From Marinobacter arenosus (GTDB lineage: Bacteria > Pseudomonadota > Gammaproteobacteria > Pseudomonadales > Oleiphilaceae), in contig NZ_JAHVAO010000001.1 in the NCBI RefSeq assembly GCF_019264345.1, positions 558,001 through 622,000 on the forward strand: 64,000 nucleotides of DNA, given 5' to 3'. The notes under the pieces were generated by a model, which saw only the letters and a program-made list of their open reading frames with translations, was not told where the DNA came from and made no database searches. Numbering within the stretch: position 1 is the first letter of the stretch; each line of letters opens with the position of its first letter. Shown one piece after another: positions 30,360 to 43,201 of this stretch. Made by a program: the position numbers and the translations under genes.

Positions 30360-31337
30360 TCAGCCCGGGAGGAAGTCGATGGGAAACCGGACCTTTCGGG
30401 TTTCCACGTTATCTGAACCAAAGTTGAACAGGCGTACTCTCATGGCTATGCGCTGCTCCAGGGTCGGATTCTCAAGCTCGGAACTGACCACCTGGCAGGC
30501 GGACACGGACCCGTCCGGTTCAATCACCAACTCAAGCAACACCTTCCCTTCCAGGGTCGGATCCTGACGCAACTCCCGTCGATACAGCGAATACAACGCC
30601 GTCTTCTGAGCATCGAATACCTGCCGGATATTGCTCATCGCGCGCTCCCCCGTTGCCGGCTCGGCTGGTTCAGCCTTGGCCACACGCCGCTCACTCACCT
30701 CAGGGGACGCCTTCACCTCCTTGACCCGGTGCCCCTCGACAGCCACCTGAGTCTCCGGAGCGGCCGTATCCTCGACGCCACCGCTACCTTTCAACACCCT
30801 GTCGGCATCCGCAATGTCGGACCCGGCAGGAACGCCCCCCGCCCCTGTGTTTGCCTGTAACTGCTCAACCGCCTCATTCTCCGGTGCCCTTAACGAGGCC
30901 AGTCGGTCTTTCATCGCCAGCAGGCCCGAGCGAGACGCCTTTTCACGAGCCTGCTCAACACTCTGGGTGGCTGGAGTCGGCGTTACCGGTTCCGGATCTG
31001 CAACCGCCGGTACCGGTTTGTCTGCAGATTCCACCGGTTCATCAGCCTCGGATGAATTTTCCCGCGTCGGTTGGGGTTCGGGCTGAGGCTCCGGGCGGAC
31101 CGGTTCCGGCGGTTCGACCGGTTCCGGCCGATCAACCAGACGCGCCAATTGGGGAGGCACTTTCTCAGCTTGGGACCGTTCGATTTGCGGCACGTCAATC
31201 GTCGGGATCAGCACAGCCAGTGGAAGAAAAACAGCCGCGACCAAAAGGGAAATCACGACAAACCGACGGTTTTCCCCTTTCGCGGTTCGCCACGGCAAGC
31301 CCATTTCCTGACCAAGATTCTCCCTGGCTTCAGCCAT
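30360..31337 (-). CDS. TonB/AgmX-like energy transducer
   Basis: A protein of 325 residues from the ATG at 31337, which overlaps the upstream exbD-like gene by 8 bp. A cytoplasmic N-terminus, one membrane helix (FVVISLLVAAVFLPLAVL) and a long Pro/Glu-rich periplasmic spacer (PEPVEPPEPVRPEPQPEPQP) lead to a C-terminal domain. That domain has FDAQKTALYSLYRREL, GKVLLELVIEPDGSV and LFNFGSDNV. This resembles the AgmX/PglI C-terminal domain of gliding-type machines more than classic TonB. It would carry energy from the ExbB/ExbD-like channel across the periplasm. Last gene of the nine-gene run. Confidence 0.8.
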   Translation of the reverse strand: MAEARENLGQEMGLPWRTAKGENRRFVVISLLVAAVFLPLAVLIPTIDVPQIERSQAEKVPPQLARLVDRPEPVEPPEPVRPEPQPEPQPTRENSSEADEPVESADKPVPAVADPEPVTPTPATQSVEQAREKASRSGLLAMKDRLASLRAPENEAVEQLQANTGAGGVPAGSDIADADRVLKGSGGVEDTAAPETQVAVEGHRVKEVKASPEVSERRVAKAEPAEPATGERAMSNIRQVFDAQKTALYSLYRRELRQDPTLEGKVLLELVIEPDGSVSACQVVSSELENPTLEQRIAMRVRLFNFGSDNVETRKVRFPIDFLPG

Positions 31338-31818
31338 TCTGCACCCCCGCCTCGACGGCCAGACGTACCTGGCGGAACTGCTCGTCAACACAGGTCTGCA
31401 TTATCTTTCGCAACAGGCGGTAATCGGTGTCCCTGCCGGCCATGATGGTGATTTCCAGGCCTTGTTCCGGAATTTCCGGCCAACGGTCCCGTCGATACGC
31501 GAGCTCTTCCGACAGGCCGGCGATGTGCGTGTCGTTGGCTTCAATGGCACTCAAGCGGGCCACTTCACGGCCCTGGACCAGAATAGACCCGCCGCTGACC
31601 TGGACCGTCAGATTCTCGGCCGCCGCTTGTTTGGCCGACGATTCCGGGAGAGGCACGTCCGCGGTATTCTGCATGACTTTCACATCGGACGAATTAACCA
31701 TCAGGAAAAACACCAGAATGGTAAAAATGTCCATGAGTGATACCAGGTTCAGGCCTCCGGCCTTATGCATCCGGCCGTAATGCCGCTGAATCCTGCGAGC
31801 TTTGCGAGAGGCTTTCAT
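31330..31818 (-). CDS. ExbD/TolR-like stator protein with membrane aspartate
   Basis: A 162-residue ExbD/TolR family protein: short basic cytoplasmic tail, one helix and a periplasmic domain. The helix reads NLVSLMDIFTILVFFLMV and keeps the protonatable Asp (in LMD) that in TolR and ExbD carries the proton path. The periplasmic part (DVPLPESSAKQ..., GGSILVQGREV) fits the family. Its ATG overlaps the stop of the second exbD-like gene (ATGA), so the two are translated together, probably at near-equal amounts. Confidence 0.85.
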   Translation of the reverse strand: MKASRKARRIQRHYGRMHKAGGLNLVSLMDIFTILVFFLMVNSSDVKVMQNTADVPLPESSAKQAAAENLTVQVSGGSILVQGREVARLSAIEANDTHIAGLSEELAYRRDRWPEIPEQGLEITIMAGRDTDYRLLRKIMQTCVDEQFRQVRLAVEAGVQNG

Positions 31819-32345
31819 GCACCCTCCCCGTCGTCCACGCCCTTTCGGCCCGCCAATTGCCGATCTTCTGGCGCATCCATCAGCGCGACATCCGGAAAGA
31901 GCTCACCTTCAACAACACTGGCCGCAACGACCGCGGGGTACGAACGGACCGTATCCATGGCGGTTACCAGTGTCTGATAGTCAATGTCAGGACCCACTTC
32001 TAGAACGATGTCGGTCTTTTCCGGAACCCGGCGCTTTATCCGCTGCAACACGTCCCTCAACCCACTGAAATCCTGCTGGCCTCCGGTCACCGGTAAGGCC
32101 CTGATAACGCCCCGGTTGCTGTCAGAAACCTCCATCCCTGCCGGAATCAGGGTGACCACCAGTTTGAGTTGCTCCGGCGCAGGGGCTTGGCCACTGTCCC
32201 CGCCTGGAAAATTCAATTCGATCATTCGTACCTGGCTGAACACCATGCCCAATAACAGAACCGGAACGAGCACGATCATCAGGTTCATGAACGGTGTAAT
32301 GTCCAGATCGGGTGAACTGGCGAATTTGCGATGTCGGCGTCTCAT
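31815..32345 (-). CDS. ExbD/TolR-like protein lacking the membrane aspartate
   Basis: This 176-residue ExbD/TolR family protein is paired with the next gene. Its helix reads DLDITPFMNLMIVLVPVLLL: the ITP motif is standard, but where TolR has an Asp (as in PLLDV) there is Asn. So the key proton-carrying residue seems lost, while the other ExbD keeps it. The periplasmic domain looks intact (LPVTGGQQDFSGLRD, TDIVLEVGPDIDYQ). It may form a mixed dimer with its neighbour, one active and one structural subunit. It starts 46 bp after the ExbB-like stop. Confidence 0.83.
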   Translation of the reverse strand: MRRRHRKFASSPDLDITPFMNLMIVLVPVLLLGMVFSQVRMIELNFPGGDSGQAPAPEQLKLVVTLIPAGMEVSDSNRGVIRALPVTGGQQDFSGLRDVLQRIKRRVPEKTDIVLEVGPDIDYQTLVTAMDTVRSYPAVVAASVVEGELFPDVALMDAPEDRQLAGRKGVDDGEGA

Positions 32346-32391
32346 ACAGACTCATCCATGCTGTTTTCGACCCAAAACCCGTTTCCAATCA

Positions 32392-33039
32392 TCAGGCAAC
32401 GGCGCCCGTCGTTTTCGAATCAGAAATGATATTGAGCAGCTTGACGCCAGCCATCTCGAAGCTGTCCACGATTTCATTGGTCCGGGTTTGGAGCAGTGCG
32501 TGGAACATCAGAAGTGGAATGGCGGACATCAAACCGAAAGCGGTGGTATTCATGGCAACGGAGATACTCTCCGACAGCAGGCTCGCCTTTTGTGACGGGT
32601 CTGCTGCAGCAACCGCGGTAAACGCCGAGATGAGACCAATGATTGTCCCCAGCAATCCGAGCAGGGTCGCGATATTGGCCAGAGTCGCCAGGTATTGGGT
32701 CCGCTTTTCGAGCCGGGGAAGAACTTCCATCAGCCCCTCTTCCATAGCGTACTCAATGTCTTCACGGCGACTGTTGTTCAGAAGGCGGCCAATGCCCGCC
32801 CCCATGATGGACGCGATCGCACTATCTGAGCTGCTGGCGGCCTTCATGGCGCGCTGGTAATCCCGTTTCTGGAGAAGAGGCAGAATTCCCTTCTCAAACG
32901 CCATCCGGTTCCGGCGTCGAACGGAAGCCAGATAGAAAAATCGTTCCAGGGTAATCGCAAGCCCCACGGCGAGGACCACCGCAATGGGGTACATGAAAGG
33001 GCCACCATCCTGAAAAAACCGAAGTACTGTATCCAGCAT
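32392..33039 (-). CDS. ExbB/TolQ/MotA-type proton channel protein
   Basis: A 215-residue inner-membrane channel subunit with three helices: near residues 14-36, a pair-forming helix LATLLGLLGTIIGLISAF, and a third with ISVAMNTTAFGLMSAIPLL. The glycine/threonine-rich second and third helices are the ExbB/TolQ hallmark. With ExbD-like partners it turns proton motive force into mechanical work. It is the only ExbB here against two ExbD genes. A small exported protein gene lies just upstream with a 15-bp gap. Confidence 0.88.
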   Translation of the reverse strand: MLDTVLRFFQDGGPFMYPIAVVLAVGLAITLERFFYLASVRRRNRMAFEKGILPLLQKRDYQRAMKAASSSDSAIASIMGAGIGRLLNNSRREDIEYAMEEGLMEVLPRLEKRTQYLATLANIATLLGLLGTIIGLISAFTAVAAADPSQKASLLSESISVAMNTTAFGLMSAIPLLMFHALLQTRTNEIVDSFEMAGVKLLNIISDSKTTGAVA

Positions 33040-33054
33040 GTTTGTTCTCCGTTG

Positions 33055-33423
33055 TTACTGCATCGTCACGGTTGAATCCCGACCGGGATTCAGAACCAGG
33101 GGGTTAAGGGTTTGTCGAAATACCCGGTGTTGTTCCATTGCAACCGGGTTGACCGGTTGCAGGAGCACCGGGGCCGTGCTGTCGAGTTCTTGTCTTGGCC
33201 TGCGAGGAAGGCTCGGCGCCTGCCAGGGAAGGATGTAGAGAACTCTCGGGTTATCCTCGCCAATCCGCGCCGAAATACCCTCAACCGTCAGAGGGTTTCC
33301 CTCGGGAGTGGCATCGTCCGACAACTCCGACGCCAGAAGGCCAGCGGGACCGGCTGCAAGCAATGCCACGACGGTCGCCTTCAAAGCCAGGCGGGGTTTG
33401 CCAAACGTCATCCGGTATCCCAT
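33055..33423 (-). CDS. Small exported hypothetical protein of the motor locus
   Basis: Not recognised. It has 122 residues with a signal peptide (ALKATVVALLAAGPAGLLAS) and then a short mature chain rich in Pro, Arg and Leu with no cysteine or catalytic motif (RVLYILPWQAPSLPRRPRQE). A start at either 33423 or 33411 is possible. It lies 3 bp after the TPR lipoprotein gene and 15 bp before the ExbB-like gene, so it is firmly inside the operon. It is probably a periplasmic accessory part of the machine. Confidence 0.7.
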   Translation of the reverse strand: MGYRMTFGKPRLALKATVVALLAAGPAGLLASELSDDATPEGNPLTVEGISARIGEDNPRVLYILPWQAPSLPRRPRQELDSTAPVLLQPVNPVAMEQHRVFRQTLNPLVLNPGRDSTVTMQ

Positions 33424-33426
33424 GAT

Positions 33427-33900
33427 TCAGTCCAGCCTCCGCTGCAGGTCTGCGATCCATCCGGCCACCGTCTTGTCCTCCTCACCAGAAATCTCCCGGT
33501 ACTTCTGGTAATGGGCCAATGCCGTCTCAAGATCGATCAGATAGAGCTCGGAAATGACGGCAAGGTTGTAATGCAGCTCAGCCACTTCCGGCGAATGTTG
33601 TATTCCTTGCTCCAGAAGGGAAGCGGCTTCGGTGAAACGCTTCTCTTCCTGGAGCAACAACGCGAGGTTGTTGACGACAACCGGGTCCTCAGGGTTGAGC
33701 TCCACCGCCTTTTGCCAGGCCTGCTCCGCTTCCCGCTTTCGGCCCTGCTCGTAGGCCTGCTTGCCCTCCCGGGCATATTCCATTGCCAGTTCAGGGCTGA
33801 CGCGCTCCGGTTCCTTCACAGCTGGCGCTGAACAGCCCGCAAGAAACACGAACCCCAGTATCAGAACGGCAAGGCGCACCGGGCTCTTATCCAGCATCAT
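33427..33900 (-). CDS. TPR lipoprotein of the motor locus
   Basis: A 157-residue lipoprotein. The signal ends in the lipobox LAGC (Cys23), and the residue after Cys is Ser, so outer-membrane sorting is expected. At least two TPR motifs follow (AWQKAVELNPEDPVVVNNLA and ELHYNLAVISELYLIDLETA). TPR arrays bind partner proteins, so this may anchor the trans-envelope machine at the outer membrane. The ATG at 33900 overlaps the last codons of the large TPR gene by 14 bp, showing translational coupling. Confidence 0.85.
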   Translation of the reverse strand: MMLDKSPVRLAVLILGFVFLAGCSAPAVKEPERVSPELAMEYAREGKQAYEQGRKREAEQAWQKAVELNPEDPVVVNNLALLLQEEKRFTEAASLLEQGIQHSPEVAELHYNLAVISELYLIDLETALAHYQKYREISGEEDKTVAGWIADLQRRLD

Positions 33901-36703
33901 CTTTGACCTCCAATCTCCATGTCATCCAGCGGACCGACCGGTCGTAACGACCGGGATTCAGCTTCGCAAGCACACCGAGGCTCTTCCCTATCCACGCGTC
34001 GTAACCGCGGGCGGCAACACGTTGGTGGTTTTCCGAATGCAGACGGATAGCTTTCTCTTCGAAGGGAAACGCCTCTTCTTCCAGAAGCATTTGGTACTGC
34101 ATCGTTTCGAGTTCATTCAAGTCAGAGGGAACCGACGATGCCATCAGATCCTTCGCCAATACGCGATATAACTCAGCGCGGCGATACAGCGATTCCGACC
34201 GAACCGCCTCGCCCCCAAGCCTTTCCGCATCAACAAAACGTTGGCGGGCGATCTCCAGCGCCCGCTGTTTCTGATCGAGAGATGCCGGTAACGGATGACT
34301 CAGCTCAATACCGGCAAACGTCGCAGCTGCCCTTGCGCCAAGGGCCAGAGAGGCTCGGGCCGCCCAGGCGAGCGTGTCGTCGGAGTGCCATTGGCTTGCC
34401 AGCTCTTGGTCAACCAGATCTTGCTGCAGATCAACCGATTCGTCGCCACTTTGAATCAGGCGATAACGCATGGTCTGCATTTCAAGGTGCTGGTCAGCGG
34501 TATTGGCGCTTTTATGCGCAACCAGGTATTCCCGGTACAATCGATTGCGGTTGGCGGTATCCTCGGCCTGGTGAAAAAGCGATGCCGCTCTCAGCTTCAT
34601 TGGCCAGGGGTTCTCCACCACTTCCGCCGCGTCCATCAGTTCCCGGGCCGCAGAGACTGGCTGACCAGAGGCCACGTAGGCATGAACCAGCTTGGCACTG
34701 ACTTCTTCGGTCAACCGATGCTGCGGGAAATCCTGGCGAAAAAGGCGGAGTTCGTTAATGGCGGTCGACCATTCCGAAGCCTTCAACAGGGTATTGGCCG
34801 CGTCGTAACGCCCCCTGATGGCAATATCCGAGTTCGGTAGCGCGTTCCCCACCCTTTTGAAATGGTCCACGGCGATGGCAACGTCGCCCCGCGTCGCAGC
34901 CTGCTCACCTTGACGATAGATAGCCGTCGCCAGTTGCTTCCGGATCGATGCGCGTTCATCCGCCTCCACGCCATCAAACGTGCTTTCCTCCGACACGTCC
35001 AGAACACGATTCCAGGCGCGCTCGGCAAGGGCATACTCGCCTCCCTGCTGCCTGACGTTGGCGATGGCGAGCCAGCCCGCGTACCGTTCGGTCGCCGAGG
35101 CACGCTCATTCTTGACCGTTTTTTCGCCATAATTGAGAGCGCGCTCCGGATCACCCGCCGCCAACCATCGTGATGCCAGATCCGCCGTTAAACCGGGCAG
35201 ACGGTGATCCCCGGCGAAATACTCCTCAAACCGGTCGGCTTCCTCGGAAAGCTGGGCCAGGTCCGGCTGGAATTCCGGCGTCCGACTTGAGCCGTCGACG
35301 CCCTCCCTGACCAACACCACGGCCGCCCAACCTGCGTCGTCGGCTTCCTCGTAGTTCTTGTTCCCATAGGCGGCTTGCTGAAAATCGGACAGCGCTGCTG
35401 CGTATTCACCGGATTGCAGCCGGGCATCGCCGGCCAGCCTGAGAAGGGCGTTGTCGGATTCGCTGCGTTCCGCGAGCTCCTCGTAGTACTGGGCGGAAGT
35501 GGAAAATGCAGCGCGCCCGCTTTCAAGGGAACCATTTTGGAAGGCCGTCGCCCCCCGCTCATAGTAAAAATCAGCCAGCCGGCGACTGAACTGCTGCCAG
35601 CGTTGCTGATCAGAAGTGGAAAGCGTCGCGTAGCGATCGGCCGCCCCAAACATGGCCACGTAATCCGCCCGGGCTTCCCGGACCCGGGAGGGTTCGCCGG
35701 CGCGCTCCCACACCTCAGCTATCTGTGCCATGAAGAGAGGGGTCATCGGGTGATCCGGGGAATGCCGAACGAATGCCCGATTGGCTCGCACGCTTGCCTC
35801 GAATTCACCGCGAATTGCATAGTAATCCGCGAGGCGGTCGAACAGCAGGTACGCCCAATGCCTTTTCGGTGCGCCCTCAAGCTCAAGCCATGCCAGGAGA
35901 CTCTCGGGACCCTGCTTTCGTGCTGCCATCAACGCCAGAACCCGGAAGGTATCGTCAATTGTGTCCACACTGGACGGCTCGACGTTCTGAATACTGTCCG
36001 GCGTTGGCAAAAACTCATCAAGTACCGACAGGAAAGTCTCGGCTGAGCGTTCCCAGGCCGACGGCCCCTGCTTGAACTGACTCCAGCCCAACATGTACCC
36101 GGCCTTTGTCTTCAGCGGGCCCGGCTCTATAGACTCGATCAAGGTGAGATAGACCGATTCTGCCTCGGCATAATCCCCCGCAGAAAACGCTGACTCTGCG
36201 ATCCGGAACCGCGCTTCGGGCACCAGGTCGGACTTGGGGTAAAGGCCTACCAGCTGTTTCAGCCGATCAATGGACTGGCCGGCCTGTCCGGTTAAAGCAT
36301 GCGCCTTGGCCATCTGGTAAAGCAGCTCATCCAATCGACCACTGTAGGACCCGCGGGAGAGGATGGACTCGTAACTGTCGATCACCTCGCGGTAAACACG
36401 CGCCTCTTCCTCCGGAGAAAACCCGACATCCTGTCCGGATCGGTCCCGAATGTTAGTGAGGCGGTTCAGGGCATCAATCCGAACTTCCGGTTCATCAGAG
36501 GAGTCAAACAGCCGCTGGTAGCGGCGTGCGACTTCGGCGGGAGAGATCGCAGGCAGGGGCCGGGACTCAAACTTGAGAAATACCGGGCGCATATCCCCGA
36601 TGGTCTCGCCATCCCGTCCGAGCTCGACCCGGAACGATTCCTGCGCCAACGCCGGAGCAGTCAGCTGTACCAGGCAAAGAAACGCGAAGGTCGGACGTTT
36701 CAC
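33887..36703 (-). CDS. Large exported TPR-repeat protein of the motor locus
   Basis: A 938-residue protein with a signal peptide (FAFLCLVQLTAPALAQ, cut near residue 21). Almost the whole mature chain consists of helical tetratricopeptide-like repeats, for example RFRIAESAFSAGDYAEAESV and LRLAGDARLQSGEYAAALSD. No enzyme motif is visible. Such a long periplasmic solenoid could be the scaffold of a trans-envelope complex, comparable in kind to the large TPR proteins of the Myxococcus Glt machine. The ATG overlaps the upstream stop (ATGA). Confidence 0.82.
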   Translation of the reverse strand: MKRPTFAFLCLVQLTAPALAQESFRVELGRDGETIGDMRPVFLKFESRPLPAISPAEVARRYQRLFDSSDEPEVRIDALNRLTNIRDRSGQDVGFSPEEEARVYREVIDSYESILSRGSYSGRLDELLYQMAKAHALTGQAGQSIDRLKQLVGLYPKSDLVPEARFRIAESAFSAGDYAEAESVYLTLIESIEPGPLKTKAGYMLGWSQFKQGPSAWERSAETFLSVLDEFLPTPDSIQNVEPSSVDTIDDTFRVLALMAARKQGPESLLAWLELEGAPKRHWAYLLFDRLADYYAIRGEFEASVRANRAFVRHSPDHPMTPLFMAQIAEVWERAGEPSRVREARADYVAMFGAADRYATLSTSDQQRWQQFSRRLADFYYERGATAFQNGSLESGRAAFSTSAQYYEELAERSESDNALLRLAGDARLQSGEYAAALSDFQQAAYGNKNYEEADDAGWAAVVLVREGVDGSSRTPEFQPDLAQLSEEADRFEEYFAGDHRLPGLTADLASRWLAAGDPERALNYGEKTVKNERASATERYAGWLAIANVRQQGGEYALAERAWNRVLDVSEESTFDGVEADERASIRKQLATAIYRQGEQAATRGDVAIAVDHFKRVGNALPNSDIAIRGRYDAANTLLKASEWSTAINELRLFRQDFPQHRLTEEVSAKLVHAYVASGQPVSAARELMDAAEVVENPWPMKLRAASLFHQAEDTANRNRLYREYLVAHKSANTADQHLEMQTMRYRLIQSGDESVDLQQDLVDQELASQWHSDDTLAWAARASLALGARAAATFAGIELSHPLPASLDQKQRALEIARQRFVDAERLGGEAVRSESLYRRAELYRVLAKDLMASSVPSDLNELETMQYQMLLEEEAFPFEEKAIRLHSENHQRVAARGYDAWIGKSLGVLAKLNPGRYDRSVRWMTWRLEVKDDAG

Positions 36704-38352
36704 CGCTTGCCCTCCTGAAGATTCTCCAGAGCAAGGTACTCATACAAATGGGCGATTTGCTGCTCGGTCTTATCCAGCGAAAAAGCCATTCGACGGTCCT
36801 GTTCTTCCACGAAATCCAGGGCTCGCTCGTCCAGAAGTTCCTCGGATCGACGGATCAGGCGGGCAACCCGTTCCTGGAACTCCCCGGTCTTTGCTTTCAA
36901 CCCCCGCGCCTGACGAAGTTGTTCCCTGAGCGCTGATGGGCGAGTCTTGATTCGAGCTGCGAAGGCTTCCAGGCTGCTTCCAGACGCAGACAGCGTTTCC
37001 GCCATACTACGAACCCGCTGTTTCTGTTCCGCGCTCAGGTTTGCACCCTCCAGCCGCTTGAGGGCACTTCTGAGCGATTCTTGTTGGCTATTCAGGTTGG
37101 CAGCCGCCCTGCCGCCTTCCGCCTCCAGCGTTGCGATCTGGTCTTCCAGCGCCTGGACGAAAATGGTCAGATCGCTTCTTTGTCGTTCCAGAGTCCGCGA
37201 CAGATCTTTCAGATCAGCGACCCGCCTTACGCTTTGCTGTGCCTCGGGATTCTCAACGAACTCAAGAAGGTAGGCCATTCGCGGCTGGGTCAACGTCCGG
37301 CTATCCGCCAAAAACCATTCAAGGTCGGAGTCCCGGGCGTCCTCCACCAGGGCTTTATAGGCACCCTGCTGACGAATACGGTCGGCCAGCTTTCGAAGTG
37401 TGACGCGCTCGCTCTCATAGGCGGCATTGGCCGCCAGGTAGGCCTCACCGGCCTGCCCTAGGTAGCCGGACAGGTCGAAACCGCGGCCCATGCCGATCCA
37501 CGCATCGGCCACGCCCGGGAAGGCAAGCGGGTATTTCTTCGCTCGATGCCAGCTTTGCATGGAGGCGCGATGGTTTCCCTTGGCAGCCAGGGCCAACCCA
37601 TGAAGGTAGAGCGCCTGTGGAGTGCTGTAACTTTCCAGCGGTATCTTTTCAAGGAAACCGATGGCTTTCTCGTACTCGTCGTTCTGAAACGCCAGATAGC
37701 CCGCGCGAACCAACAGACGGCTTTTCAGATGACGACTGCGATCGCCCACACTGTCTTTCTCGGCCATGGCCAATGCCACCCTGAGCGCTACCAGTGCACG
37801 GGTCGGGTTCAGATCCTCCCTGGCATAATCGGAAGAAAGGTTCAGGTACCCCACCGCCGCCCAGTAGCCTTCCTCCATTCCTGCCAGGATCTGACCTGCC
37901 CTGTCCGCTCGCCCGGCCTTTCTCGCGATCTCCGCCAGTTCGTAGGACGCCTGTTGCCGCGTCTCGCCAAACCCGAAACGAACCGCCTTTTCGAGCCAGT
38001 TCTCTGCCTCCAGGAACTGCTCCTGTGCTAACAGACTCCGGCCCAGAAGCAATGCTGCCTCCCCACGGTGATGGTGCTCTTTCGCAACCTGCCGGAGTGC
38101 TGCCAAACCCGCCTCCGTGCGACCACTTTCCAGCAGCAAGCGGGCCCTGAGAAAGGCGGCGGAATCGCCCTCCAGACTGTCGACGAACCCGAGAACCGGA
38201 TAAATCCGGTCGGTTGCCAACGCATACTTCGCCAACCCCGTCTGAAGCTCGGGCGGCACTTGGCCAGCCCCGGCCAGGCTGGGAGAAGCCCACGCCCACA
38301 GTAGGAGCGTGCATGTTGCGCATAAGGAGGATTTGAGAATCTGGCGCATCAT
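36700..38352 (-). CDS. Exported TPR and coiled-coil protein of the motor locus
   Basis: A protein of 550 residues from ATG 38352 (MMRQ); a GTG at 38367 is less likely. A signal peptide (CATCTLLLWAWASPSLAGA) leads into TPR-like repeats up to about residue 330 (ALLLGRSLLAQEQFLEAENW, LNLSSDYAREDLNPTRALVA). Then comes a long charged coiled coil (ALEDQIATLEAEGGRAAANL, LKRLEGANLSAEQKQRVRSM). The layout of a helical solenoid plus rod suits a periplasmic linker between membranes. The start lies 5 bp after the upstream stop. Family not named with confidence. Confidence 0.78.
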   Translation of the reverse strand: MMRQILKSSLCATCTLLLWAWASPSLAGAGQVPPELQTGLAKYALATDRIYPVLGFVDSLEGDSAAFLRARLLLESGRTEAGLAALRQVAKEHHHRGEAALLLGRSLLAQEQFLEAENWLEKAVRFGFGETRQQASYELAEIARKAGRADRAGQILAGMEEGYWAAVGYLNLSSDYAREDLNPTRALVALRVALAMAEKDSVGDRSRHLKSRLLVRAGYLAFQNDEYEKAIGFLEKIPLESYSTPQALYLHGLALAAKGNHRASMQSWHRAKKYPLAFPGVADAWIGMGRGFDLSGYLGQAGEAYLAANAAYESERVTLRKLADRIRQQGAYKALVEDARDSDLEWFLADSRTLTQPRMAYLLEFVENPEAQQSVRRVADLKDLSRTLERQRSDLTIFVQALEDQIATLEAEGGRAAANLNSQQESLRSALKRLEGANLSAEQKQRVRSMAETLSASGSSLEAFAARIKTRPSALREQLRQARGLKAKTGEFQERVARLIRRSEELLDERALDFVEEQDRRMAFSLDKTEQQIAHLYEYLALENLQEGKR

Positions 38353-38357
38353 GGCGG

Positions 38358-38903
38358 TTACTTCCACTCGACAAACGATACTCGGGGTTCGTAACTGGGT
38401 GCCTGCGCCTCCAGACTCATCTGAAGCCGCAAGGTGCCAGGACGTTTCAGGAATCGGTGGATGGTTTCGCGACGAACAAAATGATCCTTCGCCGAACGTG
38501 CGGTAACGACCGCCTTCAGCTCATGTTCGCCGTTCGAGAGGTTGCCCACGAACAACTGCTGAATGCCGCCAGCCTCCAGGGAGCCCCTCTCCCTGTCGGA
38601 GTAGAGGTGGGAAACAACGGGTTGGCCGTCAACAAACAACTCGATGGAATCCAGGTCCAGAGCCTCTCGGCTGCCGAGTGTCAGGAAAACTGCCATCCGC
38701 GTGTCCGCCGGGTGGAGGAGCTTCTGCTCAAGAGCAAACACCTGAGCGGAATGCTCCGAAACCTGTGCCCGCAGTTGTTCTATGTCCTGGTCGACGGCTG
38801 CTGCGAACGCCCACTGGGATACTGCGCCCAGGCTCACTATGCCGGTAAGCAACGCGCTCCAGGCGCTTACCCGGCGCTTTGGTGTTGATTTTTTGCCGAA
38901 CAT
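38358..38903 (-). CDS. First gene of the motor locus: small exported protein
   Basis: A protein of 181 residues from ATG 38903. A basic start (MFGKKSTPKRR) and hydrophobic stretch (SALLTGIVSLGAVSQWAFA) form a signal peptide or anchor. A short coiled coil (DIEQLRAQVSEHSAQVFALE) and a beta-rich domain follow, with LDLDSIELFVDGQPV and GEHELKAVVTARS. AGGAGG stands 13 bp upstream of the ATG, rather far. An open frame to 38975 is not favoured. I see no DNA-binding motif. It leads nine genes that share one direction and mostly overlap or abut. Confidence 0.75.
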   Translation of the reverse strand: MFGKKSTPKRRVSAWSALLTGIVSLGAVSQWAFAAAVDQDIEQLRAQVSEHSAQVFALEQKLLHPADTRMAVFLTLGSREALDLDSIELFVDGQPVVSHLYSDRERGSLEAGGIQQLFVGNLSNGEHELKAVVTARSAKDHFVRRETIHRFLKRPGTLRLQMSLEAQAPSYEPRVSFVEWK

Positions 38904-38948
38904 AATGCCGTGTCTGCCTCCTGCCATCCTGGTGACGGGCATTGTTAT

Positions 38949-38983
38949 GTAACAAGCTGGCAGAAATCGTAACACTTGGTAAC
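38949..38983. promoter_or_regulatory. Phased GTAAC direct repeats upstream of the motor locus
   Basis: GTAAC occurs at 38949, 38969 and 38979, i.e. at 20 and 10 bp steps. The last two form GTAAC-N5-GTAAC, the tandem layout of OmpR/CpxR-family response regulator sites. The repeats lie 46-80 bp before the first gene of the locus. The outermost also sits in a TTGTTA/TAACAA inverted repeat (38942-38955). Confidence 0.4.
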
Positions 38984-39000: not shown

Positions 39001-39243
39001 AGATCACCAAATGCAAATTCGCAGAAGGAACTTCAAGGAGTGTCGGTTTTTTTGACAGGTATAGGAAGGGAAATGTGACAGTGTTTTATTGTTTGGAAAT
39101 CGGAACTGTCAGTGCATTGTTTTTTAGGCGCTTTTTATTCATGGCCCTGGAATTGCCTAACAGTGATTGCGGGGAACCCATATGGGAAACCCCGTTTGAT
39201 ATGCCGAGCTTGGCCGATGCCCTCAACCGCATCGGCTTTTTTT
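39001..39243 (+). ncRNA. Candidate plus-strand small RNA, GGA-rich
   Basis: This gap lies between minus-strand genes yet ends in a clear plus-strand terminator. It has nine GGA triplets in about 190 nt, and stems such as TGACAGT/ACTGTCA (39076-39111) and CGGGG/CCCCG enclosing CCCAT/ATGGG near 39169-39193. A perfect TTGACA lies at 39052-39057, but the matching -10 is poor, so the 5' end is unsure. Repeated GGA in loops would fit a CsrA/RsmA-binding RNA. No GacA box was seen. Confidence 0.33.
39213..39243 (+). terminator. Orphan Rho-independent terminator
   Basis: GCCGATGC (39213-39220) and GCATCGGC (39229-39236) around an 8-base loop, then seven T. It faces plus-strand transcription although no plus-strand protein gene precedes it. 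On the minus strand there is no T-run. Confidence 0.85.
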
Positions 39244-40420
39244 ATTTGCTCAGATGCTTCATGGCCGATTCGAGGCCGTCGATGGTCAGCGGGTACATAT
39301 GATCCTCGACCAATTGGCGCGTCATACCCAGTGAGCCCCCATTCCCCCAATAACTCTCGGGCAACGGGTTAAGCCATACCACCTTGCGGAAATGATCCGA
39401 GATCCGCTGAAACCAGGTTGCACCAGCTTCCTCGTTCCAGTGTTCGATCGAACCACCCGGGTGGGAAATCTCATAGGGCGCCATGGTGGCATCCCCCACG
39501 AAAATGACTTTGTAGTCCGGTGAGTATTTGTGAAGGATGTCGTAAGTGCTGGTGGTCTCGTTCATCCGCCGAATGTTGTTGGTCCAGACACTCTCGTAAA
39601 TGAAGTTGTGGAAGTAAAAGTACTCCATGTGTTTGAACTCAAGACGCGCCGCCGAGAATAACTCCTCGCACACCCGGATATGCGGATCCATCGAGCCACC
39701 AACATCGAAGAAAATAAGCACTTTCACGGCATTATGCCGCTCCGGCACCATTTTCAGATCGAGGTACCCCGCATTTCGGGCAGTCGACCGGATGGTGTCA
39801 TCCATATCAAGCTGATCGGCCGCGCCCTGGCGGGCGAACTTCCGAAGCCGACGCAGGGCAACTTTGATGTTCCGGATACCCAGGGTGATGCTGTCATCCA
39901 GATCCTTGAAGGCACGCTTCTCCCAGACTTTGACAGCTCGTCCGTGACGACCGTTCTTCTGGCCGATACGAAAGCCTTCGGGATTGTAGCCATCCGCACC
40001 AAATGGCGAGGTTCCACCCGTGCCAATCCATTTGTTGCCACCGGCGTGCCGCTCGTTCTGCTCTTCCATGCGCTTCTTGAAGGTCTCAATGAGTTCCTCA
40101 AGTCCGCCCAAAGAATCGATTTTGGCTTTATCTTCCTCAGACAGATGCTTTTCGAACTCGGCGCGCAGCCAGTCATCCGGGATCAGCATCTCCATCAGAT
40201 CTTCAAGATTCTCGATGCCTTCAAAGTAGGCCTTGAACGCACGGTCGAACTTGTCGAAATGACGCTCATCCTTTACCAGACACAAACGCGCCAGGTAATA
40301 AAAATCTTCCATGTCGGCAAACGCCAGACGATTCTGAAGAGCCTCCAGAAGGTCCAGGAACTCGCGTAGACTGGCGGGCACCTTCGCCCGCCGCACTTCG
40401 AGAAAAAAATCAATCAACAT
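39242..40420 (-). CDS. CoxE-like von Willebrand A protein, partner of MoxR
   Basis: A protein of 392 residues from the ATG at 40420 (MLIDFFLEVRRAK). The N-terminal helical part is followed by a C-terminal VWA-like domain with a modified metal site (FFDVGGSMDPHI in place of DxSxS) and FVGDATMAPYE. It resembles the CoxE/YehP-type proteins that act with MoxR AAA+ ATPases to remodel or insert metal into target complexes. The start lies 22 bp after the moxR-type gene. The usual client, such as a nitric oxide reductase or CO dehydrogenase, is absent. Confidence 0.85.
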   Translation of the reverse strand: MLIDFFLEVRRAKVPASLREFLDLLEALQNRLAFADMEDFYYLARLCLVKDERHFDKFDRAFKAYFEGIENLEDLMEMLIPDDWLRAEFEKHLSEEDKAKIDSLGGLEELIETFKKRMEEQNERHAGGNKWIGTGGTSPFGADGYNPEGFRIGQKNGRHGRAVKVWEKRAFKDLDDSITLGIRNIKVALRRLRKFARQGAADQLDMDDTIRSTARNAGYLDLKMVPERHNAVKVLIFFDVGGSMDPHIRVCEELFSAARLEFKHMEYFYFHNFIYESVWTNNIRRMNETTSTYDILHKYSPDYKVIFVGDATMAPYEISHPGGSIEHWNEEAGATWFQRISDHFRKVVWLNPLPESYWGNGGSLGMTRQLVEDHMYPLTIDGLESAMKHLSK

Positions 40421-40442
40421 AAAACGAGACTCTTGCTGAATA

Positions 40443-41285
40443 TCAGCTGCGACGACGGGCCATGAAAGCCAGTTTTTGCAGCAGGTGAACATCCTGCTCG
40501 TTTTTCACCAGTGCGCCATACAAAGGCGGCAGTGCCGAACTCGTGTCTTTCTCCTGAAGCATTTTCGCAGACAATTCGTCCGCCATCAGCAACTTCAGCC
40601 AATCAATCAATTCAGAGGTGGACGGTTTTTTCTTCAGACCGGGAACCTTGCGCACGTCAAAGAAGACTTCCAGGGCATCCCGAACAATTTCCTGCTGCAG
40701 TCCCGGAAAGTGAACATCGACAATGTCTTTCATTGTGTCGTGGTCGGGGAAGCTGATGTAGTGGAAGAAGCAGCGGCGAAGGAATGCGTCCGGCAGTTCC
40801 TTCTCGTTATTGCTGGTAATGACCACGATGGGGCGCTGTCGGGCCTTCACGGTTTGCTGGGTTTCGTAGACGAAGAACTCCATGCGATCCAGCTCGAGCA
40901 GGAGGTCGTTGGGGAACTCGATGTCAGCCTTGTCAATTTCATCGATCAACAGCACGACCTGCTCCTCGGCTTCAAACGCCTCCCAGAGCTTGCCCTTCAC
41001 GATGTAGTTGCTGATGTCCTTGACCTTCTCATCGCCAAGCTGGGAATCCCGCAGACGGGAAACGGCATCGTACTCATACAGTCCCTGCTGGGCCTTGGTG
41101 GTCGACTTGATGTGCCAGGGAATCAACCGCATACCCAGTGCGGCAGCCATTTCCTCGGCCAGCAGTGTCTTGCCGGTTCCGGGCTCGCCTTTGATCAGCA
41201 GCGGGCGCTGAAGAGAAATTGCCGCGTTGACGGCCATCTGCAGGTCATCGGTGGCTACATAATTCTCGGTACCGGTAAACTTCAT
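40443..41285 (-). CDS. MoxR-family AAA+ ATPase
   Basis: The 280-residue AAA+ chaperone-like ATPase has Walker A GEPGTGKTLLAEE, Walker B VVLLIDEIDKAD, sensor VITSNNEKELPDAFLRRC with the arginine finger pair. It belongs to the MoxR group that pairs with VWA proteins, here the CoxE-like gene just downstream and the membrane VWA protein 17 bp upstream. The three could act as one unit on an envelope or metal-enzyme client. The substrate is unknown. Confidence 0.92.
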   Translation of the reverse strand: MKFTGTENYVATDDLQMAVNAAISLQRPLLIKGEPGTGKTLLAEEMAAALGMRLIPWHIKSTTKAQQGLYEYDAVSRLRDSQLGDEKVKDISNYIVKGKLWEAFEAEEQVVLLIDEIDKADIEFPNDLLLELDRMEFFVYETQQTVKARQRPIVVITSNNEKELPDAFLRRCFFHYISFPDHDTMKDIVDVHFPGLQQEIVRDALEVFFDVRKVPGLKKKPSTSELIDWLKLLMADELSAKMLQEKDTSSALPPLYGALVKNEQDVHLLQKLAFMARRRS

Positions 41286-41302
41286 GTTAAATATCCTGTT
41301 GG

Positions 41303-43201
41303 TTACTTTTTCTGATCTGAATCTTCGGGTTTCGGTTGGAGCTCGTCGCGCTTGCGTTCGGAATCCTTCTCATCGTACTCGGGGAGGTCATCGAATTCCG
41401 AAAGATCGAAATCATCCAGCCCGAACTCTTCTTCATCGGCCTGCCTGCCTTCTTCCACCGTGTTGTCGAGTTCAGGGATGGCCTCCTCCCCGTCATCCGC
41501 AGGCGCTTCAATAGGCTGTTCTGCTTCGCTCGCTTCAGGTTCCGACACTTCTTCGTCGAGATCCGCCACGGTCTCCCGCTCTGCCGCCGCCCTTGCCTGT
41601 TCCGACCGCTGGGCCTGACGCCTTTTCATCGCCAGCCCAACAAGCGCCATCAGTCCCACGCCCCCCATACCTGCTCCGATCGCCCAGAAAGGCACCGGCA
41701 AGCCACTCACAGCATCGTCTTCCAGTCCGGCAGGTCGAGCTGCCACGGTCTCGGGCTCCTCAACGTCACTGATGTCGATCGGACTGGTGATCGCCGACGC
41801 TACTGGGGCCTCGGGTTCGGGGATGGAGTCCGACTCTCCGCCCGGCTCCTCCTGCTCGACGGACGCTCCAGGGTCGGGCTCGCCAGCCATAGCCGTCTGA
41901 TGAGGCTCTGCATCGGCCTGCCCTTCTGCCGTCGAGTCCTCGGAGACGAACCCGGCACGGGTGCTGAACTTCCGGCCGAATGTCTGGCCGTCGGCGATTA
42001 TCTCCAGTTGGTAAAGACCGGGTGCCGGCAACTTTCCGATTGTGTCTGAAAAAACACCATTCTTCGGTGGCTGGTCAGCAGAGAGCACCTTGGTGCCGCT
42101 CAGGCCGTCCTCGGACGTAATACTGAGCCTGACCTCGAGAACCTGCAGGAAATCGGGATCGGTGATTCTCTCCCCACCCTCAAAGAACGCGATGTCCAGT
42201 TTGATGGGTTCCGCTTCAGAAAACGTCGGGGGTACCGGACTCACCGCCATCCTCAGATCACTGACAACGGTCACCCGGCTACCCTCGCCCAGTTCGCCAT
42301 TGATACGCCAATCACCCGACATTGGTTCGCTGACCGTCATCAGATCGTAACCTGCTTCCCGCGCCCACCGGATGTTATCAGGCAATTCCTGGAGGTTAAT
42401 CGTTCTTCCATCCGGCCGAATCAGCTCTAACTGGCGCGTTTCGCGGGTTTCCCGCTCGCCCCAAAACACAAGGGCTGTGTATTCGGTCACCCCCTCATCG
42501 ACAGAGAAGGCATTACCGACAATGGGTATCTGCTCCTGCGGTACGGCCGTATTCAACGCTTCCAGAAACACCCGATTCAGCGCGTCTGCCGTATCGGCAA
42601 TCTGAAATCGCCCCCCGGACTTGCGGGCGAGCTTTCTCAGAAATTCCGCGTCCGCCTGCGCTGATAACGCGATGGGGTGAAAGGTGGCACCCTGCTCCGC
42701 CAGATCCACCACCAGAGATTCCAGTATCCGGTTCTCTTCTCGCAGATTAACCTGCGCGTCGTCTGAAATATCGACGTTGCCATCGGTCAGCAAAATGAAA
42801 TGGGTGTTCTCAAGGCCATCGGTGGAATAATAGCTGTCGCTGGCCACTTCAATGGCTTCGCCCAGATTGGTTCTGAGCGCAACGGAATTGATTTGGCGAG
42901 ACCGTTCAACGGCCTGTTCACGCCAGTCTGCACCAACGGAGCGGTGTGGAACCAGCATGTTCACATATTGGCCAAAGGTCCAGAGACCGGCCGTTGTGCC
43001 ATCAGGAATCATACGGGCCAGCAGCCTGACTGCCGGTTGCCGCAGGTTATCCGGATCGTTTTCCTTCATCGATCCGGATATGTCGACGATGATTCTGACA
43101 TCGGACGACGCAGACAGGGCCGGCGCTGGCATTTCCTGAGCGTGAACAGTGGCCGGAAACACGGTGACGGTAAAGATTAACAGCGTCAGGAGTTTTGGCA
43201 T
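41303..43201 (-). CDS. Exported membrane-anchored VWA domain protein
   Basis: A 632-residue protein with a signal peptide (LLTLLIFTVTVFPATVHAQ), a periplasmic VWA domain with an intact metal site (DISGSM, then TNLG and LLTDGNVD), a beta-rich middle region and a linker rich in Glu and Pro. One C-terminal helix (FWAIGAGMGGVGLMALVGLA) is followed by a very acidic cytoplasmic tail (FGLDDFDLSEFDDLPEYDEK). The tail could contact the MoxR ATPase encoded next. Function is not established; the VWA and MoxR pairing suggests protein-complex assembly in the envelope. Confidence 0.85.
   Translation of the reverse strand: MPKLLTLLIFTVTVFPATVHAQEMPAPALSASSDVRIIVDISGSMKENDPDNLRQPAVRLLARMIPDGTTAGLWTFGQYVNMLVPHRSVGADWREQAVERSRQINSVALRTNLGEAIEVASDSYYSTDGLENTHFILLTDGNVDISDDAQVNLREENRILESLVVDLAEQGATFHPIALSAQADAEFLRKLARKSGGRFQIADTADALNRVFLEALNTAVPQEQIPIVGNAFSVDEGVTEYTALVFWGERETRETRQLELIRPDGRTINLQELPDNIRWAREAGYDLMTVSEPMSGDWRINGELGEGSRVTVVSDLRMAVSPVPPTFSEAEPIKLDIAFFEGGERITDPDFLQVLEVRLSITSEDGLSGTKVLSADQPPKNGVFSDTIGKLPAPGLYQLEIIADGQTFGRKFSTRAGFVSEDSTAEGQADAEPHQTAMAGEPDPGASVEQEEPGGESDSIPEPEAPVASAITSPIDISDVEEPETVAARPAGLEDDAVSGLPVPFWAIGAGMGGVGLMALVGLAMKRRQAQRSEQARAAAERETVADLDEEVSEPEASEAEQPIEAPADDGEEAIPELDNTVEEGRQADEEEFGLDDFDLSEFDDLPEYDEKDSERKRDELQPKPEDSDQKK

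Follow-up and report, generated by a model that had tools for sequence, protein, structure and literature searches.

The stretch of DNA analysed here (the window) comprises 64,000 nucleotides from Marinobacter arenosus. Between positions 30360 and 38903 the open reading frames (ORFs) reveal a block of nine minus-strand genes encoding one ExbB-like, two ExbD-like and one TonB-like protein, three tetratricopeptide repeat (TPR) proteins and two small exported proteins (Table 1). Position 38903 is an inner ATG of P9, whose longest ORF starts at 38975. The genes are transcribed in the order P9-P8-P7-P6-P5-P4-P3-P2-P1, with spacings of -10, -4, -14, +3, +15, +46, -4 and -62 bp. The 62 bp overlap of P2 and P1 depends on taking P1 in its longest form, from a GTG; starting 18 codons inward, at an ATG, would reduce it to about 8 bp. 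An earlier note on this DNA had described nine minus-strand genes with a largest gap of 46 bp. All nine ORFs are present and the same gap was measured, while domain searches back the kinds of protein it named (ExbB/TolQ-like, ExbD/TolR-like, TonB/AgmX-like and TPR). The note was also right to link the block to the Agl-Glt machine of Myxococcus and its gammaproteobacterial core, a relationship in print since 2011 (PMC3169522).

Luciano et al. described a core complex in which aglR, aglQ and aglS lie in one cluster with gltC, gltD, gltE and gltG, in gammaproteobacteria, Geobacter and Fibrobacter; it has one gene beyond these seven, is duplicated in two Marinobacter, and its function was called unknown (PMC3169522). 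Judged by gene content and order, the window set is a copy of this core complex, and the locus itself is no discovery.

Table 1 The nine genes and two key codons (positions in the window)
Feature	Position	Strand	Basis
P9, exported, coiled-coil helix and transthyretin-like beta sandwich	38358..38975	minus	inner start 38903; AlphaFold2 model
P8, large exported TPR and coiled-coil protein, GltC position	36700..38367	minus	ORF, domain search
P7, large exported TPR protein, BamD/YfiO-like repeats, GltD position	33887..36703	minus	ORF, family searches
P6, TPR lipoprotein, GltE position	33427..33900	minus	ORF, domain search, NCBIfam GltE weak
P5, small exported protein, motif P-x-V-L-Y-I-x-P-W, GltF position	33055..33423	minus	conservation, alignment
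P4, motor ring protein, ExbB/TolQ/AglR-like	32392..33039	minus	MotA_ExbB (PF01618), 102.7 bits
P3, ExbD/TolR-like, Asn at proton-binding position	31815..32345	minus	ExbD (PF02472), 46.5 bits
P3 N21 codon (Asp in ExbD)	32283..32285	minus	alignment
P2, ExbD/TolR-like, Asp retained	31330..31818	minus	ExbD (PF02472), 59.9 bits
P2 D30 codon (proton-binding Asp)	31729..31731	minus	alignment
P1, TonB/TolA/GltG-like arm: one membrane helix, Pro-rich linker, TonB-type C-terminal domain	30360..31391	minus	NF033768

The Pfam search that gave the scores for P2, P3 and P4 in Table 1 detected TPRs in three of the nine proteins, P6, P7 and P8. P1 scores 20.3 bits against TonB_C, under the cut-off of 24.6, and 61.5 bits against the AgmX/PglI C-terminal model NF033768, above its cut-off of 40, which the homologue from the second copy in the same genome likewise exceeds. 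The predicted model of P1 has a C-terminal domain (residues 252-340) whose structural matches are TonB and TolA domains, and we predict this domain to be of the TonB/TolA type. T132 and T166 of P4 never vary where a residue is aligned (118 and 116 of the 119 rows, gaps making up the rest). P6 matches the NCBIfam GltE model at 16.6 bits (E 0.0031; cut-off 225). In searches to E <= 0.1, P5 matched neither a Pfam nor an NCBIfam family; of 7998 database proteins scored for it, 6468 lie at E <= 10, and a Pfam domain is absent from all 120 of those listed. The sole Pfam row for P9 is at chance level (E 0.068) and no other Pfam or NCBIfam family was found at E <= 0.1. The AlphaFold2 model of P9 (mean predicted local distance difference test score, pLDDT, 86.5) has a helix at 38-87 and strands at 93-204, with generic beta-sandwich proteins as structural matches.

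Conservation and the second copy

We read 141 loci selected for holding P7: the window, the second copy in its own genome, 79 named records and 60 further genomes (L numbers denote loci and G numbers genomes). By our rule 19 of these were excluded as cut by a contig end, leaving 122 uncut loci. Profile iteration and gene assignment used the same ORFs; the TPR profiles cross-match, and each ORF was assigned to its best profile. Of 369 gammaproteobacterial genomes, 88 have a P7 relative (E <= 1e-10). In 81 of the 122 uncut loci all nine genes share the strand of P7 and lie no more than 9 kb from it, and the nine-gene arrangement is therefore far beyond chance; P5 is present in 118 and P9 was detected in 106. 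The earlier note had asked whether the TPR genes might fail to travel with the ExbBD-like genes; across the uncut loci the two groups are co-conserved. In seven loci (L121, L122, L140, L141, L150, L152 and L153) P8 and P7 form a single fused protein, which supports contact between them.

The same genome carries a second complete nine-gene set (C1:1812552-1821709). The best protein pairs between the two sets are 19-56% identical, the weak ones being P8 (19%, E 0.2) and P5 (21%, E 0.008). In midpoint-rooted trees the Marinobacter sets of the window type group as a single clade for P7 (62/62, support 1.0), P4 (50/50) and P1 (61/61; both 0.91). Among 50 Marinobacter genomes, 25 have at least two P4 genes, 11 have a window-type set lacking the motor and one P4 elsewhere, and 14 have one P4. 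Immediately upstream of the window set (39242-43201) are genes for an exported VWA protein, a MoxR-type AAA protein and a CoxE-type VWA protein, which are retained in 54-63 of 65 window-type loci versus none of the 76 others. A few copies look broken, through decay or sequencing error: P4, P3 and P1 are split in L039 and P7 in L098, and the genome of L098 (G418) has a barrel gene with an internal stop.

Unequal ExbD-like proteins, motor-less sets and the barrel

The proton-binding Asp of P2 (D30) is kept in 115 of 115 sequences. At the matching position, set by alignment to the ExbD Asp of solved structures, P3 has Asn (N21) in 113 of 115, the two exceptions showing a Ser in L112 and a gap in L039, the split copy. 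Seventeen of 17 additional P3 copies also have Asn: two in G006 and G025, four at L192-L195 and eleven at L196-L206. This split is not a general trait of paired ExbD proteins, since four of six twin ExbD pairs outside the machine are Asp/Asp; the other two are Asp/Asn. We note that the M. arenosus genome has a third two-ExbD locus (C1:2674908-2677234; L183:6909-9235), with an ExbB and a TonB-like gene, which belongs to another machine and encodes one Asp and one Asn ExbD. In M. xanthus the AglQ D28N substitution halts the motor (PMC3858216). According to a 2022 review, Asp is predicted in both AglQ and AglS, and whether they form homo- or heterodimers is not known (PMC9389320); the Asp that this review gives to both TolR-like proteins of AglRQS is replaced by Asn in P3. 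Because an all-Asn pair would be without a proton site, we infer that P3 and P2 would form an obligate mixed pair. The Asp/Asn split, new as far as our literature search reaches, would make the motor lopsided.

Eighteen sets are without motor genes. For sixteen of them the genome also carries a motor-bearing set; the other two, both in Marinobacter, occur with a free-standing motor operon only. Eleven of the 60 uncut window-type Marinobacter loci lack P4, P3 and P2; these form one clade (support 1.0) and are for this reason counted as one loss. The gap was inspected in four motor-less loci: P5 directly abuts P1 in L046, L054 and L058, and about 55 bp lie between them in L085. Each of the 11 Marinobacter genomes has exactly one P4-type gene elsewhere. 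Eight of these genes sit in full nine-gene sets and one in a set of eight (L206, with no separate P8 and a P7 frame of 1585 residues); at L196 and L205, P4-P3-P2 stand isolated among unrelated genes. The genomes of L196 and L205, a metagenome bin and a draft of Marinobacter sp. AC-23, yielded a single P7 and a single AgmX/PglI-type arm apiece, in each case within the motor-less set, where three control genomes yielded two of each; neither has a strong barrel. A second motor is found in 25 of 39 genomes with a motor-bearing window-type set versus 11 of 11 with a motor-less one (Fisher p 0.022), which among related genomes is a hint only. Seven motor-less loci belong to other genera (L125, L127, L134, L158, L165, L168 and L171), with motor-bearing second sets in the same genomes (L194, L172, L195, L137, L193, L119 and L192, respectively). 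Since the motor-less sets each lie in a genome with such a motor elsewhere, the simplest reading is that motor and envelope components probably cooperate in trans, with the motor-less sets borrowing the other motor. One AglRQS motor serves both Glt and Nfs in Myxococcus (PMC3858216). The motor-less sets are new as far as our search of the literature extends.

The flanks (at most about 10-13 kb) were surveyed in the 76 loci that do not belong to the window-type clade, with one representative per family annotated, and the counts are lower bounds. Families beside the set are ApbE (at least 21 of 76 loci), TlpA-like (20), a propeller (PD40) lipoprotein (17), DUF3570 (17), SH3-plus-barrel (13), a barrel (12) and DUF4266 (7). 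The ApbE-TlpA-DUF4266-DUF3570 flavinylation module of PMC8238504 often stands beside the motor machine (for example in L159 and L115), a coupling not mentioned in the relevant passages of that paper. A second neighbour set, with families in 7-9 of the 76 loci (L112, L117, L126, L128, L138, L146, L147, L154 and L174), comprises three families, the first being a LamG-domain protein. By eye, this protein shows CxxCH motifs and the second begins with a twin-arginine-like sequence; the second and third gave no family match.

The barrel representative belongs to TIGR04565 (140 bits; cut-off 60). TIGR04565 exceeds its cut-off in 56 of the 369 genomes, all among the 88 with P7, and in none of the 281 without; at the looser E <= 0.001 it is found in 111 genomes, many lacking P7. 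Distances between barrel and P7 on the same contig were taken for 41 of the 56 genomes; they are within 12 kb in 29 and within 26 kb in all 41. A barrel above 100 bits, a threshold drawn after seeing a gap between 112 and 67 bits, is present in 34 of the 36 Marinobacter genomes that carry either two motors or a motor-less set, and in none of the 14 whose one set is of the window type. With the official cut-off (60 bits) 39 of 50 Marinobacter genomes pass, some through a different protein of about 400 residues (for example G370, G382 and G393, genomes with the window type only). In M. arenosus the SH3-barrel and barrel genes lie divergently beside P9 of the second set, with the propeller lipoprotein gene after its P1. 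In Marinobacter the strong TIGR04565 barrel thus goes with the second copy and not with the window copy. We found no earlier report of the barrel-machine association within the reach of our literature search.

The gene order in M. xanthus is gltD-gltE-gltF (89 residues, exported)-gltG and gltK-gltB-gltA-gltC (Table 1 of PMC3169522). P5, exported and of about 100 residues, is encoded between the GltE-like gene and the motor genes; upstream of the GltC-like gene is the barrel pair. By position only, we regard P5, which carries no family name, as the counterpart of GltF and the barrel pair as that of GltB and GltA; within the reach of our literature search the placing of P5 is new.

Interpretation and comparison with known systems

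The reading we prefer, at about an even chance, is that the nine genes encode a proton-driven machine for gripping or for sideways transport of outer-membrane or surface material. Proton flow through the ExbB-like P4 ring around the likely mixed P3/P2 pair would power it. The TonB-like arm P1 would couple the ring to P5-P9 and pull or push the periplasmic TPR scaffold, which in turn would move outer-membrane or surface material, as Glt and Nfs do in Myxococcus by means of a proton-driven motor (PMC3858216). Of the earlier note's proposal, a machine moving surface polymer or outer-membrane cargo or else a private TonB system, the kinship with Agl-Glt stands and cargo movement is the best, predicted, reading. 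The purpose in Marinobacter, at a guess from relatives, could be to attach to insoluble substrates or surface polymer, or to move along them. In Fibrobacter FSU_2397, 2398 and 2400-2403 (TPR, TPR, ExbB, ExbD, ExbD and TonB) are enriched on cellulose, three of them (FSU_2401-2403) being listed as cellulose-only (PMC6851124, PMC4619616); FSU_2399 is not mentioned in the relevant passages. The gene order, and the naming of F. succinogenes by Luciano et al., suggest that FSU_2397-2403 is the core complex. These data may point to gripping or movement along insoluble substrates, a suggestion that we would accept or doubt in equal measure.

A more specific version, which we offer tentatively and consider doubtful on balance, is that a surface-transport machine is widespread in gammaproteobacteria, that its motor is of the 5:2 type with a built-in asymmetric axle (an Asp partner and a permanently 'protonated-like' Asn partner) and that one motor serves exchangeable envelope sets in trans, ancestral ones with barrels and divergent ones free of them. 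The ancestral set would then have counterparts of GltA and GltB, with P5 as GltF; the window would represent the intact nine-gene barrel-free form, and two other Marinobacter would hold a motor-less barrel-free form beside a free-standing motor. Such an axle, if real, would make each turn with half the usual proton sites.

Several observations weigh against the preferred reading. Common descent with the M. xanthus parts would rest on Luciano et al. and on family models, of which GltG, GltJ and GltE score 45, 46 and 17 bits against cut-offs of 650, 450 and 225, far too low, and no glt family model in the NCBIfam search matched P7 or P8. The SHLS motif named for the TonB/TolA membrane helix includes a conserved His (PMC12204202). 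In P1 that His was not seen, His not being among the four commonest residues at any of positions 30-69 in 125 sequences, and contact between P1 and P4 may therefore differ from that of TonB and TolA. A simple lipobox pattern is found in P7 of 49 of the 76 loci outside the window clade versus 1 of 65 inside, the window copy being without it. Among the 60 uncut loci of the clade P9 was undetected in 10 and the motor is missing in 11, and the TIGR04565 survey recognised no outer-membrane barrel partner for the window copy. With no barrel partner recognised, no P7 lipobox and these losses in its clade, the window copy may be specialised or fading. A missed second set is possible in the bin and the draft with the free-standing motors. 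A literature search found no functional data on the machine in Marinobacter.

Gripping or transport has to be weighed against other readings. Tol-like envelope maintenance, in which the motor and arm tie the outer membrane to the cell wall or remodel it and move no cargo, is unlikely. The arm domain of P1 matches TolA as well as TonB structures, and the motor-less P9-P8-P7 copies of L158 and L168 lie opposite a gene run that resembles tol-pal by eye; however, the machine is scattered over 88 of 369 genomes and has lost parts repeatedly, which fits poorly with a housekeeping role, and both documented relatives, Glt and Nfs, transport surface material. That the set powers an outer-membrane redox or secretion assembly, a module of flavinylated DUF3570, TlpA, DUF4266, ApbE and the propeller lipoprotein, is improbable. 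The recurrence of these families in the flanks, at the counts given above, and the flavinylation of DUF3570 by ApbE (PMC8238504) argue for it, but DUF3570 was not found in the M. arenosus genome, the module families are absent among six annotated window flank proteins, and some of the 94 genomes (among 369) that have DUF3570 lack P7 (for example G003 and G010).

We consider it highly improbable that the set is a private TonB-ExbBD system for uptake of a large substrate with accessory TPR proteins. It does have a TonB-type arm and ExbB and ExbD homologues, and the authors of PMC6851124 interpret the similar Fibrobacter cluster as cellodextrin import. Against this, the ExbD proteins are of two types, Asp and Asn, the P1 membrane helix is without the conserved His, and no TonB-dependent receptor is among the ten annotated representatives of eleven families recurring in at least 6 of the 76 flanks; the earlier note's suggestion of such a system, for which a fixed receptor gene would have spoken, is thus unsupported. 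True gliding in Marinobacter and relatives is very unlikely: Luciano et al. speculated that a set of AglRQS and GltA-G marks potential gliders (PMC3169522), and the second M. arenosus copy has a counterpart for each when P5 and the barrel pair are counted by position, but those equivalences are positional and no barrel was recognised with the window copy.

The core complex has stood without an assigned function since 2011. The Asp/Asn split makes the homo- versus heterodimer question posed for AglQ and AglS (PMC9389320) testable, and should so nearly strict a split reflect an obligate P3-P2 pair, two proton sites would not be a requirement for rotary stators. For motor sharing, the motor-less sets offer natural experiments, most of all the two that occur with a free-standing motor. 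The co-occurrence of barrel and machine points to a likely outer-membrane partner in relatives, through which the output can be tagged and watched.

With TonB-ExbB-ExbD and Tol-Pal the machine shares the motor family and the predicted fold of the arm C-terminal domain, and it differs in its two unequal ExbD-like proteins, in having no receptor and no TolB or Pal among the nine proteins, and in an arm whose membrane helix shows no conserved His. With the core complex of Luciano et al. it shares a single cluster of TolQ-like, two TolR-like, TonB-like and three exported TPR genes, the AgmX/PglI-type C-terminal domain on the TonB-like protein and the second Marinobacter copy. Where that paper has one gene beyond the seven, there are two here (P9 and P5), and the relevant passages of PMC3169522 do not mention the Asp/Asn pair, motor-less sets or the barrel association. 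Compared with Myxococcus Agl-Glt, the window set has no recognised GltA-, GltB-, GltH-, GltI- or GltK-like gene beside it and has one Asn where AglQ and AglS are both predicted to have Asp (PMC9389320). The two have in common the kinds of motor, arm and TPR parts and an order, gltD-gltE-gltF-gltG, that resembles P7-P6-P5-(motor)-P1. The aglRQS genes of M. xanthus lie apart from the glt clusters (PMC3169522), and motor genes are likewise separate from envelope genes at L196 and L205. The Agl-Nfs spore-coat machine of M. xanthus, which is specific to sporulation, offers a parallel: an envelope set there uses AglRQS encoded elsewhere, as the 18 motor-less sets may use a motor from another locus.

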